Shown: positions 57,613 through 63,549 of the stretch, in pieces
Layout: every line of letters starts with the position of its first letter
Numbering within the stretch: position 1 is the first letter of the stretch
From: Enterococcus crotali
GTDB taxonomy: Bacteria; Bacillota; Bacilli; Lactobacillales; Enterococcaceae
Reading direction: 5' to 3'
DNA length: 64,000 bases
NCBI RefSeq assembly: GCF_000633635.1
Contig: NZ_AYPQ01000009.1
Span: 2,356-66,355, forward strand
Program-made: the position numbers and the translations under genes
Notes under the pieces: model-generated
Seen by the model: the letters and a program-made list of their open reading frames with translations, nothing else
What the model was told of the DNA's origin: nothing
The model's database searches: none

Positions 57613-60372
<2,760 letters not shown>

Positions 60373-60390
60373 TCATTTTTCTCCTCTATT

Positions 60391-60410
60391 TTTTGTAATC
60401 GATTACAAAA
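60391..60410 (-). promoter_or_regulatory. cre site (CcpA) upstream of the EIIC operon
   Basis: TTTTGTAATCGATTACAAAA is a perfect 20-bp palindrome matching WTGNAANCGNWNNCW. It lies 18 bp from the EIIC start codon, downstream of the likely promoter, as for roadblock repression. Confidence 0.8.
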
Positions 60411-60442
60411 ATAGAATAGCACAGCATTTACCTCAAAACGCA

Positions 60443-60493
60443 GACAAGTTTTGTACAATTTACAGAAGTAGTAACTTTTACAAGTTTTGTAAA
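60443..60493 (-). promoter_or_regulatory. Two operator-like repeats upstream of the EIIC operon
   Basis: TTTACAA-GTT-TTGTAAA (60477-60493) is a perfect palindrome. GACAAGTTTTGTACAA (60443-60458) is a near-copy 19 bp away. They are candidate binding sites for the RpiR regulator at 56735 or another local factor. Immediately to the right, 60505-60590 holds two direct A-tract repeats built on AAAAAAACTTTTTAAAA, probably bent DNA. Confidence 0.6.
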
Positions 60494-60643
60494 TGCTTAT
60501 TTCTTAAAACCCATAAAAAAAACTTTTTAAAAACAAATTAAAAAAAACTTTTTAAAACAGAATAAAAAAATACTTCCATTTTAAAAAGCTTTTTGTTCTA
60601 ACTAATTGTTCCAAAAAAATCCCTAATAACTAATTTTTTCACA

Positions 60644-60706
60644 CTACACGTGACCCGTATTGCCGTAACCAAGTACTTCAAACAATAGATCTAAAAATGT
60701 TAACAT
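60644..60706 (-). CDS. Small peptide, candidate signal peptide gene divergent from an RRNPP regulator
   Basis: This 20-aa gene encodes MLTFLDLLFEVLGYGNTGHV and ends in TAG. GGAGGG lies six bases before the ATG, one of the strongest ribosome-binding sites in the window. An extended -10 (TGGTATTAT, complement of 60743-60751) lies about 40 bp upstream. The hydrophobic first half with a polar Gly-rich tail resembles pro-peptides of Rgg/SHP-type systems, though it has no basic N-terminus. The regulator gene starts 97 bp away on the other strand. I infer a cell-cell signalling peptide. No homologue is known to me. Confidence 0.6.
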   Translation of the reverse strand: MLTFLDLLFEVLGYGNTGHV

Positions 60707-60742
60707 GCTTATCCCTCCAAAAAATTAGTTGATTCTAAAGGG

Positions 60743-60779
60743 ATAATACCATACTATTATATAAAACTAGAACTATAAT
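60743..60779. promoter_or_regulatory. Divergent promoter region of the peptide/regulator pair
   Basis: The minus-strand -10 (TATTAT, 60748-60743, extended by TGG) and the plus-strand -10 (TATAAT, 60774-60779) lie back to back with weak -35 elements, the layout expected when one regulator acts on both genes. Confidence 0.5.
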
Positions 60780-60802
60780 GCATAAACATAGAGGGGAAAA
60801 AT

Positions 60803-61648
60803 ATGAGAATCAAAGGAGATATCATCCGTTCAGTAAGAAAACAAAAAAAATTGTCGCAGGTCACTTTAGCTGCTGGAATTTGTACACAAGGAACTGTCAG
60901 TAATATAGAAAATAAAAACGTCTGTGACAGTCTTGAAATCCTTGACGCAATATGTAAGAGATTAAACCTAAGTCTTGAGAGTGTATTAGATGATAATGAT
61001 GAAAAGAAATTAACCTCTTTATTAAATCATGTTGAAGATTTATGTAATACATTTAAACATAAAGAAGCTCATTCACTTTTACAAGCAACATCAATCAATC
61101 CTGCTGATTTCCAAAATAAAGAGTTGGAAGTTCGTTGGCTGTATTTTAAGGGAATCACAAACTTATTAGGTTTCAACAACACAACGGATAGCTTATTTTA
61201 TTTCTACCGTGCCGATGAGCTTGGTGATCCAAACTCGATCTATGCCATTCTTTCCGTCAACAGTCTTGGTATCGTCTATGAAATGGCCAATGAGTTGGAT
61301 AAAGCCCAAGTTTATTATGAAAAATCGATCGATATGCTAAATAAAATGACAATCAAAATGCCTATTGAAGCAACGAAAATATTCTTCAATACTGCTAAAT
61401 TTTATTCGCTAATCAAAAATTACGATACAGCTTATGATTTAGCTACAAGCGGCATGGCCTTAAACCGAACATACCAATCTTTATATATGCTAGATCTTTT
61501 AGCCTATGAAGCAGCATTTAATGACTTTATGAAATCCCCAGATTTAACAGCTCCTGATTTTAAAAGTGCAAAGGTTTTTGCTGCCTTTAATGAAAATCAC
61601 TCTCTATTATCAGTGATTGCAAAGGATGAAAAAACATTAATTCGTTAA
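60803..61648 (+). CDS. RRNPP/Rgg-like HTH-TPR regulator
   Basis: This 281-aa protein has an N-terminal Xre helix-turn-helix (SQVTLAAGICTQGTVSNIENKNVC, residues 18-41) followed by about 220 residues of helical repeats, including YAILSVNSLGIVYEMANELDKAQVYYEKSI, a TPR-type unit. This architecture is that of peptide-binding regulators (PlcR, Rgg, PrgX). It is divergent from a 20-aa peptide gene and is followed, after a terminator, by LPMO and chitinase genes, which are its likely targets. AGAGGGG precedes the ATG. Confidence 0.88.
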   Translation: MRIKGDIIRSVRKQKKLSQVTLAAGICTQGTVSNIENKNVCDSLEILDAICKRLNLSLESVLDDNDEKKLTSLLNHVEDLCNTFKHKEAHSLLQATSINPADFQNKELEVRWLYFKGITNLLGFNNTTDSLFYFYRADELGDPNSIYAILSVNSLGIVYEMANELDKAQVYYEKSIDMLNKMTIKMPIEATKIFFNTAKFYSLIKNYDTAYDLATSGMALNRTYQSLYMLDLLAYEAAFNDFMKSPDLTAPDFKSAKVFAAFNENHSLLSVIAKDEKTLIR

Positions 61649-61664
61649 AAAAATCTTGATCAAC

Positions 61665-61712
61665 ACTCCGCTAGTAGGACATTTCAGCCTACTGACGGAG
61701 TATTTTATTTTT
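61665..61712 (+). terminator. Terminator after the RRNPP regulator
   Basis: ACTCCG-CT-AGTAGG pairs with CCTACT-GA-CGGAGT, followed by ATTTTATTTTT. Confidence 0.88.
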
Positions 61713-61845
61713 AACTATTACTAGTTATTATAGATAAATGCTCCGTGCTGAAAAGAGTTTTTTCACAGAATTGCTCACCATTTTATCATAATAAAAATAA
61801 TTGCATATCATTTGAATAATATAAAACAGCATGTTACATTTACAA

Positions 61846-61860
61846 TTGTAAGCGCTACAA
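61846..61860 (+). promoter_or_regulatory. cre-like site before the LPMO gene
   Basis: TTGTAAGCGCTACAA is an imperfect match to the CcpA cre, lacking one conserved base. It lies 24 bp before the LPMO start codon and just downstream of a possible promoter (TTGAAT, 17 bp, TACATT). Confidence 0.6.
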
Positions 61861-61883
61861 AAATACTTTTAGGAGGAATCACA

Positions 61884-62468
61884 ATGAAAAACACAATGCT
61901 CAAAGCAGTCCTTACACTTGGTTTATTGGCAGGAGGTCTATCTCTTTCAACTACTGTCACACATGCTCATGGATATGTTTCATCACCTGGAAGTCGGGCC
62001 TATTTTGGTAGTACCCAAGGTGGAAAAATAAATAAAAATGTTGGTCGTGCAGAGTGGGAACCTCAAAGTATCGAAGCTACAAAAAATACCTTTACGCCTG
62101 GAAAATTAGCCAGTGCAGGTGTCAGCGGATTTGAGCCTTTAGACGTTCAAACAGCCGATATTTGGCATAAAACAGACATTACGACTGGTCCTCTTGCTAT
62201 CAATTGGACACTAACAGCTCGTCACAGAACCTCTACCTGGGATTACTATATGACAAAACAAGGCTGGAATCCAAATCAACCTTTAGATATCAAAAATTTC
62301 GATTTAATTGGACGTGTTGACGATAAAGCAGCTATCCCAGAAGCTTCTGTCAATCATACAATCACTGTTCCAAGTGACCGCAAAGGCTATCATGTCATCT
62401 ACGCTGTTTGGAATGTTTATGATACGACCAATGCTTTCTATCAAGCAATCGATGTCAATGTAAAATAG
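61884..62468 (+). CDS. Chitin-active lytic polysaccharide monooxygenase (AA10)
   Basis: This 194-aa secreted copper enzyme has a signal peptide that ends THA, so the mature protein starts with His29 of HGYVSSPGSRAYFG. This is the N-terminal half of the copper histidine brace. His114 in LTARHRTSTWDY is the second ligand. The single domain with no extra binding module matches E. faecalis EfAA10A (CBM33A). It oxidatively cleaves crystalline chitin. AGGAGGAATCACA gives the start at 61884; the open frame extends to 61812 without support. It is in an operon with the chitinase, 31 bp apart. Confidence 0.95.
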   Translation: MKNTMLKAVLTLGLLAGGLSLSTTVTHAHGYVSSPGSRAYFGSTQGGKINKNVGRAEWEPQSIEATKNTFTPGKLASAGVSGFEPLDVQTADIWHKTDITTGPLAINWTLTARHRTSTWDYYMTKQGWNPNQPLDIKNFDLIGRVDDKAAIPEASVNHTITVPSDRKGYHVIYAVWNVYDTTNAFYQAIDVNVK

Positions 62469-62499
62469 GAACTAAAATAAATTAAAAGGAGTCCTGTCC

Positions 62500-63549
62500 A
62501 TGAAATTCAAACAGCTTATTCCTGCCTTTTTATTCGTCTCAGGTATACTAACAAGTACCTTACTAGCATCAACACCTGTTGATGCTGCAGACTCTGCCAG
62601 TGAAATGGTCAGTGTAGCAAATAAGAAAGTCCTTGTCGGTTATTGGCATAATTGGGCTTCTAAAGGTCGTGACGGCTACAAACAAGGAACTTCTGCCAAC
62701 ATTTCATTAGCAGAAGTGAATAAAGCGTATAATGTGGTGCCTGTTTCATTCATGAAAAGTGACGGTGTCAGCCGAATCCCGACGTTTGTTCCTTACAACA
62801 AAACTGATGCTGCTTTTAGGCAAGATGTTGCTTTACTTAACAGTCAAGGGCGAGCTGTTTTACTTGCATTAGGAGGAGCTGATGCACATATTCAATTAAA
62901 AACTGGTGATGAACAGGCTTTCGCTGATGAAGTGATTAGACAAGTGGAGACGTATGGATTTGACGGACTGGATATCGACTTAGAACAGTCCGCAATTACA
63001 GCTGGTGATAATCAAACGGTGATTCCCAAGGCCTTGAAAATCGTTAAAGAACACTACCGAACACAAGGAAAAAACTTCATCATCACGATGGCGCCTGAAT
63101 TTCCTTATTTAAAACCAGGCGGTGCTTATGAAAAATACATTACTTCCTTAGATGGTTACTACGACTACATTGCACCACAGTTATATAATCAAGGCGGTGA
63201 TGGTGTTTGGGTAGACGAGATCAATAAATGGATCCCACAAAGCAACGATGCGTTGAAATATGAGTTTCTTTATTATATGTCGGATTCAATGATCCACGGC
63301 ACACGGACATTCTTGAAGATTCCAAATGACAAACTTGTTTTAGGTCTTCCTGCAAATATCGATGGTGCCGGCAGCGGTTATGTGATTGATCCGACATCCG
63401 TTTACAAAGCACTTGATCAGCTAGCTAAAGATGGCAATCCAATCAAAGGACTGATGACTTGGTCCGCTAACTGGGATGTTGGAACGAATGTCAATGGCGT
63501 ACCTTACAATAATGAATTTGCTACTCGGTATGCACAAATTTTACAATAA
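62500..63549 (+). CDS. Secreted GH18 chitinase
   Basis: This 349-aa enzyme has a Sec signal peptide to about residue 29 (VDAAD), then a single GH18 TIM barrel. KVLVGYWHNW opens the barrel, and DGLDIDLEQ (residues 155-163) contains the DxxDxDxE motif with catalytic Glu162. MAPEFPYL, APQLYNQGG and GLMTWSANWD follow. It is similar in size to E. faecalis EfChi18A. It works with the LPMO encoded just upstream to degrade chitin or related glycans. AAAAGGAG precedes the ATG, and a strong terminator follows. Confidence 0.95.
   Translation: MKFKQLIPAFLFVSGILTSTLLASTPVDAADSASEMVSVANKKVLVGYWHNWASKGRDGYKQGTSANISLAEVNKAYNVVPVSFMKSDGVSRIPTFVPYNKTDAAFRQDVALLNSQGRAVLLALGGADAHIQLKTGDEQAFADEVIRQVETYGFDGLDIDLEQSAITAGDNQTVIPKALKIVKEHYRTQGKNFIITMAPEFPYLKPGGAYEKYITSLDGYYDYIAPQLYNQGGDGVWVDEINKWIPQSNDALKYEFLYYMSDSMIHGTRTFLKIPNDKLVLGLPANIDGAGSGYVIDPTSVYKALDQLAKDGNPIKGLMTWSANWDVGTNVNGVPYNNEFATRYAQILQ

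Follow-up and report, generated by a model that had tools for sequence, protein, structure and literature searches.

A conserved peptide gene paired with a PlcR-type receptor gene beside LPMO and chitinase genes in Enterococcus

RESULTS AND DISCUSSION

A 20-residue peptide gene that annotation had missed was confirmed, beyond chance, as a real gene in Enterococcus crotali. It lies on a 64,000-nucleotide stretch of contig NZ_AYPQ01000009.1 that was analyzed as a whole (here called the window), and it is divergent from a gene for a 281-residue helix-turn-helix (HTH) and tetratricopeptide repeat (TPR) regulator, which is followed by genes for a lytic polysaccharide monooxygenase (LPMO) and a GH18 chitinase. 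The regulator is a PlcR-type receptor of the RRNPP family, and comparison of sequences suggests that the two form a peptide-signaling pair that probably controls the LPMO-chitinase genes. A preliminary description of the window had placed a small frame with a strong ribosome-binding site (RBS) back to back with an RRNPP-type regulator and then the LPMO and GH18 genes; the frame and its RBS were read again in the sequence at the same coordinates, and Pfam matches (LPMO_10 and GH18) and gene order agreed with that account. The principal features are as follows.

60644 to 60706, minus strand: peptide gene, 20 amino acids, MLTFLDLLFEVLGYGNTGHV, start ATG, stop TAG
60712 to 60718, minus strand: RBS of the peptide gene, GGAGGGA, read in the sequence, 5 nucleotides (nt) upstream of the ATG
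60803 to 61648, plus strand: PlcR-type RRNPP receptor, HTH and TPR, 281 amino acids (Pfam, PDB profile search, AlphaFold2, Foldseek)
61884 to 62468, plus strand: secreted chitin-active AA10 LPMO, probable target (LPMO_10, E value of 3.6e-40; PDB 4a02)
62500 to 63549, plus strand: GH18 chitinase with a signal-like N-terminus, probable target (Glyco_hydro_18; PDB)

Conservation and selection of the peptide

Twenty-two genomes of the genus were searched whole, and orthologues of the regulator were found in 17 (the E. crotali genome itself and 16 others at 82 to 97% identity); an 18th genome (G014) contained more distant regulators only. A divergent 20-codon frame with an ATG start and a GGAGG RBS was present beside the regulator in all 17 orthologous loci, at a distance of 95 to 97 nt from the regulator ATG, and the other two forward frames contained stops in 15 and 16 of the 17 sequences. 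The N-terminus of the peptide varied, and the tail GNTGHV was identical in 16 of the 17 species. Pairwise comparison of the 17 sequences gave a ratio of nonsynonymous to synonymous differences (pN/pS) of 0.029 for codons 15 to 20 (GNTGHV; pS of 0.61) and 0.57 for codons 2 to 12, compared with 0.116 for the regulator. Residues G15, N16, G18, H19, and V20 were invariant, T17 was replaced once by V, and the third codon positions of the tail varied except at H19. The tail is thus under strong purifying selection. The conservation that the preliminary description had looked for in related genomes, both of the frame next to the regulator and of its C-terminal residues, was found; the frame was kept throughout and was neither interrupted by stops nor changing neutrally.

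As a control, an open reading frame (ORF) rule of this general kind fired in 14 of 3939 random 453-nt windows, and one of these 14 frames was a true peptide gene of Enterococcus rivorum. The strict motif occurred in just one control window, which by its sequence is the E. rivorum case.

The receptor is of the PlcR type

The regulator has the layout of RRNPP(A) receptors, with an N-terminal HTH, a C-terminal TPR region, a length within 250 to 500 amino acids, and a helical model, and the small adjacent propeptide gene (10 to 100 amino acids) that belongs to this layout was present in 17 of 17 loci. HTH_3 scored above the Pfam cutoff and TPR_12 below it. A profile built from 78 regulator sequences matched PlcR in the PDB (E value of 8.3e-32, profile positions 3 to 277). 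The AlphaFold2 model (mean pLDDT of 94.3, pTM of 0.77) retrieved the PlcR-PapR-DNA and PlcR-PapR structures at Foldseek ranks 1 and 2 (TM scores of 0.60 to 0.65), followed by ComR and Rgg2. N153 and N196 of the regulator align with N159 and N201 of PlcR, which we take to be residues that contact PapR, and were invariant and at least 90% conserved in an alignment of 16 sequences.

By sequence and fold, therefore, the regulator is a PlcR-type RRNPP receptor and not an Rgg protein, and the pair is not of the Rgg-SHP kind. The preliminary description was right about the RRNPP type; its comparison with Rgg-SHP pairs did not hold. No Rgg-named NCBIfam model matched the regulator at an E value of 0.001 (the presence of TIGR01716 in the library was not checked), so membership in Rgg-SHP was rejected for want of an Rgg C-terminal match and of a basic peptide N-terminus. 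The absence of such an N-terminus had been noted from the E. crotali sequence and proved general: 16 of the 17 orthologous peptides have no K or R among their first 12 residues.

A wider set of peptides with a common ending

Divergent genes for peptides of 17 to 27 residues were also found beside related receptors in other Enterococcaceae, in probable Carnobacteriaceae, and on plasmids of Enterococcus faecalis and Carnobacterium maltaromaticum. Among the 38 distinct peptides, the ending is GN plus 3 or 4 residues in 34 and [YF]GN plus 3 or 4 in 30; for the 21 peptides outside the genus-level orthologues the counts are 17 and 15, and the shared ending is partly built in, because some of the later searching used a rule that required a G[NDS] tail. 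Tails with YGD, YGS, and YTS came from a listing based on the RBS alone. The full consensus [PTG][YF]GNx[GP][HYFW][VIG] fits 20 of the 38. N-terminal parts consist of A, I, L, M, F, V, W, or C at 58% of positions over the 38 peptides and contain K or R in two, a composition that departs from a Sec-type signal.

Examples include MFDLLALLTGISVRGNAPHQ and MFDLLALLTGTSTYGNVPHV in genome G023, MLINFIIEIVPYGNAPW and LNLFTTILISITPYGNAGGI in E. rivorum, and MNLEQLVELLSDLQPNGNTSHV in G058. A series of peptides was found in G052, G133, and G195, three genomes of the same family as G058; from plasmid matches, these three are probably Carnobacterium. E. faecalis plasmids encode MGSLISLIFGASPYGNLPHV, MFSLFSLIFGTSTYGNLPHV, and near-copies, and peptides of C. 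maltaromaticum plasmids end in PYGNVPYV and PFGNTPFT. From 15 plasmid records, 11 loci were examined and 9 had a peptide; some of the plasmids that bear the pair were typed as conjugative.

In a tree of 125 nonplasmid receptors (128 collected, 3 dropped), receptors accompanied by a peptide made up 31 of the 58 members of one group (SH-aLRT of 92) and none of the 67 outside it, a clustering to which near-copies contribute. Homologues from Lactobacillaceae (26 to 34% identity among the matches listed) yielded no peptide by the rule of the tree survey. Six Lactobacillaceae loci had GN near the end of a frame, five of them without a fitting RBS and one (L144, ending in NGNFNRI) with an RBS that a laxer rule would admit; these were taken as chance, as were two further frames at plasmid loci (L221 and L225) that passed a loose rule. 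Scanning the whole taxonomic class with a plasmid receptor at an E value of 1e-35 retrieved 2 of 398 genomes, both from the genus of the window.

Chitin genes and a candidate operator

The gene order peptide, regulator, LPMO was found in 17 of 17 loci, and GH18 was detected in 16, so the linkage to chitin genes that had been suggested from one genome is conserved. The best PDB match of the LPMO was the chitin-binding protein 4a02 (E value of 6.5e-84), and the GH18 protein matched chitinase chains, 9i2p best (E value of 1.7e-151). Further features of the locus are listed below.

60542 to 60595, minus strand: A+T-rich terminator-like hairpin 3' of the peptide gene (alignment of 17 sequences)
60743 to 60748, minus strand: extended -10 (TGG-TATTAT) of the presumed peptide promoter, without a good -35 (conserved alignment block)
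61805 to 61822, plus strand: candidate operator, imperfect palindrome ATATCATTTGAATAATAT, overlapping the presumed LPMO -35 (17-locus alignment)
61812 to 61817, plus strand: presumed LPMO -35, TTGAAT, inside the candidate operator
61835 to 61840, plus strand: presumed LPMO -10, TACATT, with TG-T before it and a 17-nt spacer (by eye from the alignment)
61846 to 61859, plus strand: cre-like element TTGTAAGCGCTACA, with the core TGTAAGCGCTA in 16 of 17 loci

A consensus promoter scan of 60350 to 61900 gave 9 sites against 7.7 expected; the presumed peptide -10 was absent from its picks, and the LPMO -10 was too weak for it. The strict consensus of the catabolite-responsive element (cre) had no match in the window, and we therefore call the site cre-like only.

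Three genomes of the genus (G004, G011, and G016) carry the LPMO gene in the same neighborhood without a regulator of this kind; the scan found no peptide in them and no adjacent GH18 gene (GH18 elsewhere was not sought). Their LPMO promoters keep the presumed -35, the -10, and the cre-like element in a one-base variant. The 18-nt palindrome ATATYATTTGAATAATAT at the LPMO -35 scored 5 to 8 of 9 in the 17 loci with the regulator (mean, 6.8) and 2 to 3 of 9 in these three, with a mean of 3.8 for shuffled sequences. Of the remaining two genomes that lack an orthologous regulator, G014 has an LPMO of only 49% identity, and G021 has none at an E value of 1e-20. In the E. crotali genome, the palindrome occurred once exactly (at the LPMO gene) and in 16 rows with one mismatch, at 15 places (reversed control, 7), which makes it too unspecific to name a regulon.

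On the other flank of the peptide gene, a phosphotransferase system (PTS) EIIC gene was found in 6 of 17 loci and GH1 in 5; in the other 11 loci, among the window genes sought, a different gene follows beyond the hairpin, presumably a thioesterase. With these counts, the PTS/GH1 operon was rejected as the target. At L041, an RpiR-like gene matched in two pieces 1978 to 1557 nt upstream of the regulator start, and GH1 was not detected there, which suggests that the PTS/GH1 island is decaying in that species.

Proposed mechanism and alternatives

An N-terminus that varies freely and a C-terminus that is fixed, in a peptide encoded next to a PlcR-type receptor, point most readily to a propeptide that carries the ligand as its tail. 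We consider it fairly likely that the locus encodes an RRNPP-type peptide-receptor pair on the chromosome, in which the propeptide is trimmed and its tail is sensed by the PlcR-like regulator acting on the LPMO-GH18 genes. The divergent gene would make the 20-residue propeptide, which would leave the cell without a Sec-type signal, by a PptAB/EcsAB-type or other route, and be trimmed to about its last 6 to 8 residues, (Y)GNTGHV or GYGNTGHV. An oligopeptide permease would re-import the product, which would bind in the TPR groove; the bound or free regulator would then act both on the promoters of the peptide and regulator genes and on the palindrome that covers the LPMO -35. It could work either by activation, like PlcR, or by relief of repression, like TprA. 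With a cre-like site at the LPMO-GH18 genes, attack on chitin would depend on both signal level and carbon state. The genome encodes EcsB and 12 matches to SBP_bac_5 (oligopeptide-binding protein), an ordinary complement.

Several observations weigh against this model. PlcR/TprA propeptides begin with a basic, Sec-type N-terminus that is missing here, which leaves export, the weakest step of the model, without an explanation. The tail hardly varies among the 17 loci; typical pherotypes differ between species. Neither N153 nor N196 reaches 90% conservation in the 78-sequence alignment, and 27 of the 58 receptors in the peptide-bearing group, including a close relative in G033, have no peptide by our rule; the partly built-in ending of the wider set counts here as well. 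The LPMO palindrome was chosen after the alignment had been inspected, and the three regulator-less genomes are probably related and may represent one evolutionary event. In none of the 17 species did the gap between peptide and regulator contain a near-perfect counterpart of the palindrome, so the idea of one operator shared by the peptide and LPMO promoters was rejected, and the case for an operator comes from the LPMO side only. The PlcR box TATGNANNNNTNCATA had no match with up to one mismatch between 60644 and 61884 (elsewhere in the window, 4 matches against 3.5 expected) and was rejected as the operator in the gaps.

The main rival is a ligand that acts inside the producing cell, without export, and reports on translation or on the amino-acid or sugar state. 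The absence of a secretion signal by composition, the nearly identical C-terminus in 17 species, and the cre-like site at the target would all suit such a role, which we nevertheless regard as unlikely: the Foldseek relatives PlcR, ComR, Rgg2, and PrgX sense re-imported peptides (PMC4873490), and leaderless peptides have been validated as intercellular signals in Enterococcus malodoratus and others (PMC10518010).

It is still less probable that the pair chiefly controls its own or distant genes, with LPMO-GH18 as a stable neighbor. Pairs elsewhere adjoin unrelated genes (those for LXG proteins, M60, MucBP, and GH36), and the palindrome is unspecific in its own genome; on the other hand, LPMO is linked in every locus and the PTS gene on the other side in only 6, and the palindrome is strong in the 17 regulator-bearing loci and weak in the 3 without the regulator. 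It is very improbable that the peptide serves as a leader or attenuator for the PTS operon or is a small, toxin-like protein acting on membranes. The hydrophobic N-terminal parts and an inverted repeat (ACTAATTTTTT/AAAAAATTAGT) around the ORF would fit, but the gene next to the peptide differs between species (hardly what a PTS leader would have), a terminator-like hairpin follows the peptide, selection acts on its polar C-terminus, and Rfam matches were absent, with an RNA fold z-score of 0.26.

The 11-nt inverted repeat (peptide strand; window positions 60629 to 60639 and 60719 to 60729) flanks the peptide gene and is nearly invariant across the 17 species; it may be an RNA clamp or a protein site. 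Long-range pairing of its arms was rejected, both sides having changed together in 0 of 17 sequences (no covariation), as was an RNA switch at the peptide gene, given the fold score and the lack of Rfam matches. In the terminator-like hairpin, 7 stem pairs changed on both sides in at least 1 of 17 sequences, and most of these pairs were also broken in 1 to 4 of the 17; a G+C-based terminator scan did not report the hairpin.

Relation to known systems

The system resembles PlcR-PapR of the Bacillus cereus group in full-length receptor homology, fold, an adjacent peptide gene, and secreted degradative enzymes among targets or neighbors. The peptide is unlike the PapR ligand. In addition, the 20-residue propeptide lacks a Sec-type N-terminus, the PlcR box is absent from the gaps, and the peptide gene is divergent, whereas plcR is followed about 70 bp downstream by papR (PMC6753895). 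A PlcR orthologue has been described in Lactobacillales, namely TprA, which with PhrA in Streptococcus pneumoniae is linked to sugar state and CcpA (PMC6753895, PMC4873490); PapR/TprA-type propeptides of the salivarius group differ from ours in having 45 residues, K/R-rich starts, and other tails (PMC12445099). Rgg-SHP and ComR-ComS share the small adjacent peptide gene and the HTH-TPR receptor, with ComR and Rgg2 next after PlcR in Foldseek, and differ in that the E. crotali peptide has a polar GNTGHV tail and its orthologues almost uniformly lack early basic residues.

Leaderless communication peptides of the RopB kind are likewise encoded by unannotated tiny genes divergent from a receptor gene in Enterococcaceae, and in E. 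malodoratus they are tied to type VII secretion system genes (PMC10518010). They are mostly of 8 to 10 residues and highly hydrophobic, the ORF itself being the mature signal, unlike the 20-residue peptide here and the 17 to 27 residues of the wider set. Their receptors were collected by searching with RopB and filtering with TIGR01716 (PMC10518010); no match of that type was among the NCBIfam matches of our regulator, with the limit on library content given above.

A 2022 survey obtained no evidence for PlcR systems in Lactobacillales (PMC9765709), and another source calls Sec export ancestral and sets it against the PrgX-TraA-ComR-Rgg branch, where peptides are leaderless or exported by PptAB (PMC12700828). 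A later survey required, at its strict level, a Sec signal or an SHP profile (PMC10075063), and another worked from homology to RopB together with the Rgg C-terminal model (PMC10518010); the present peptides would probably not satisfy these detection rules and so would probably escape both. Within the open-licence literature, where absence is not absence in print, the peptide strings had no match and no description of this peptide class was found; RRNPP with Carnobacterium gave nothing, RRNPP with Enterococcus and chitinase gave no such system by title and abstract start, and PlcR-like peptide quorum sensing in Enterococcus gave Bacillus thuringiensis work only.

Judged from sequence, the set looks like a new class of bacterial signal. 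The chances seem to us evenly balanced that it is an undescribed class of Sec-independent peptides ([YF]GN plus 3 or 4 residues) with PlcR-type receptors, comprising an interspecies GNTGHV signal for LPMO-chitinase, common to 16 of the 17 species, and a plasmid pheromone circuit beside replication and transfer genes. Should these peptides act as signals, many species would gain ready-to-test pheromones of 6 to 8 residues, chitin LPMOs would be connected with signaling between cells, and one group of E. faecalis plasmids would have a candidate signal.

Plasmid, phage-labeled, and multicopy loci

On the E. faecalis plasmids pMP8-1 and pEK4S (L221, L222, and L234), a YGNLPHV peptide is encoded between two divergent HTH regulators, and the pair sits between repA and a gene annotated as traE, a possible undescribed plasmid pheromone circuit. 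The position is like that of prgX/prgQ on pCF10. Differences from PrgX-PrgQ are the plasmid peptide tails, PYGNLPHV and TYGNLPHV, and the weak resemblance of the E. crotali regulator to PrgX, through the HTH part alone (E value of 0.007, residues 5 to 65).

Both of the phage-labeled contigs examined (of 4) contained a peptide. The unverified "Enterococcus phage Efs 1-1-1" contigs (L229 and L230; OR846587 and OR846629) encode the same peptides as G023 and probably contain host DNA. A phage origin was rejected, since none of 27 pattern stretches in viral contigs encoded a relative.

In E. rivorum (L050, 5580 to 13074; the same region in L080), eight paralogous PlcR-like regulators stand in tandem, with a single divergent peptide gene, MLINFIIEIVPYGNAPW, at the head of the array. 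The Carnobacterium-like genome G195 has 11 paralogous receptor loci (E value of 1e-45). Ten neighboring proteins were scanned there; two were without a family, one with weak matches only, including TPR. Pairs in this genome adjoin a gene for an M60 mucin-binding protein and GH36 at one locus, a MucBP protein gene at another, and, at L201, L204, and L205, LXG-domain genes, which are of the type VII secretion kind.

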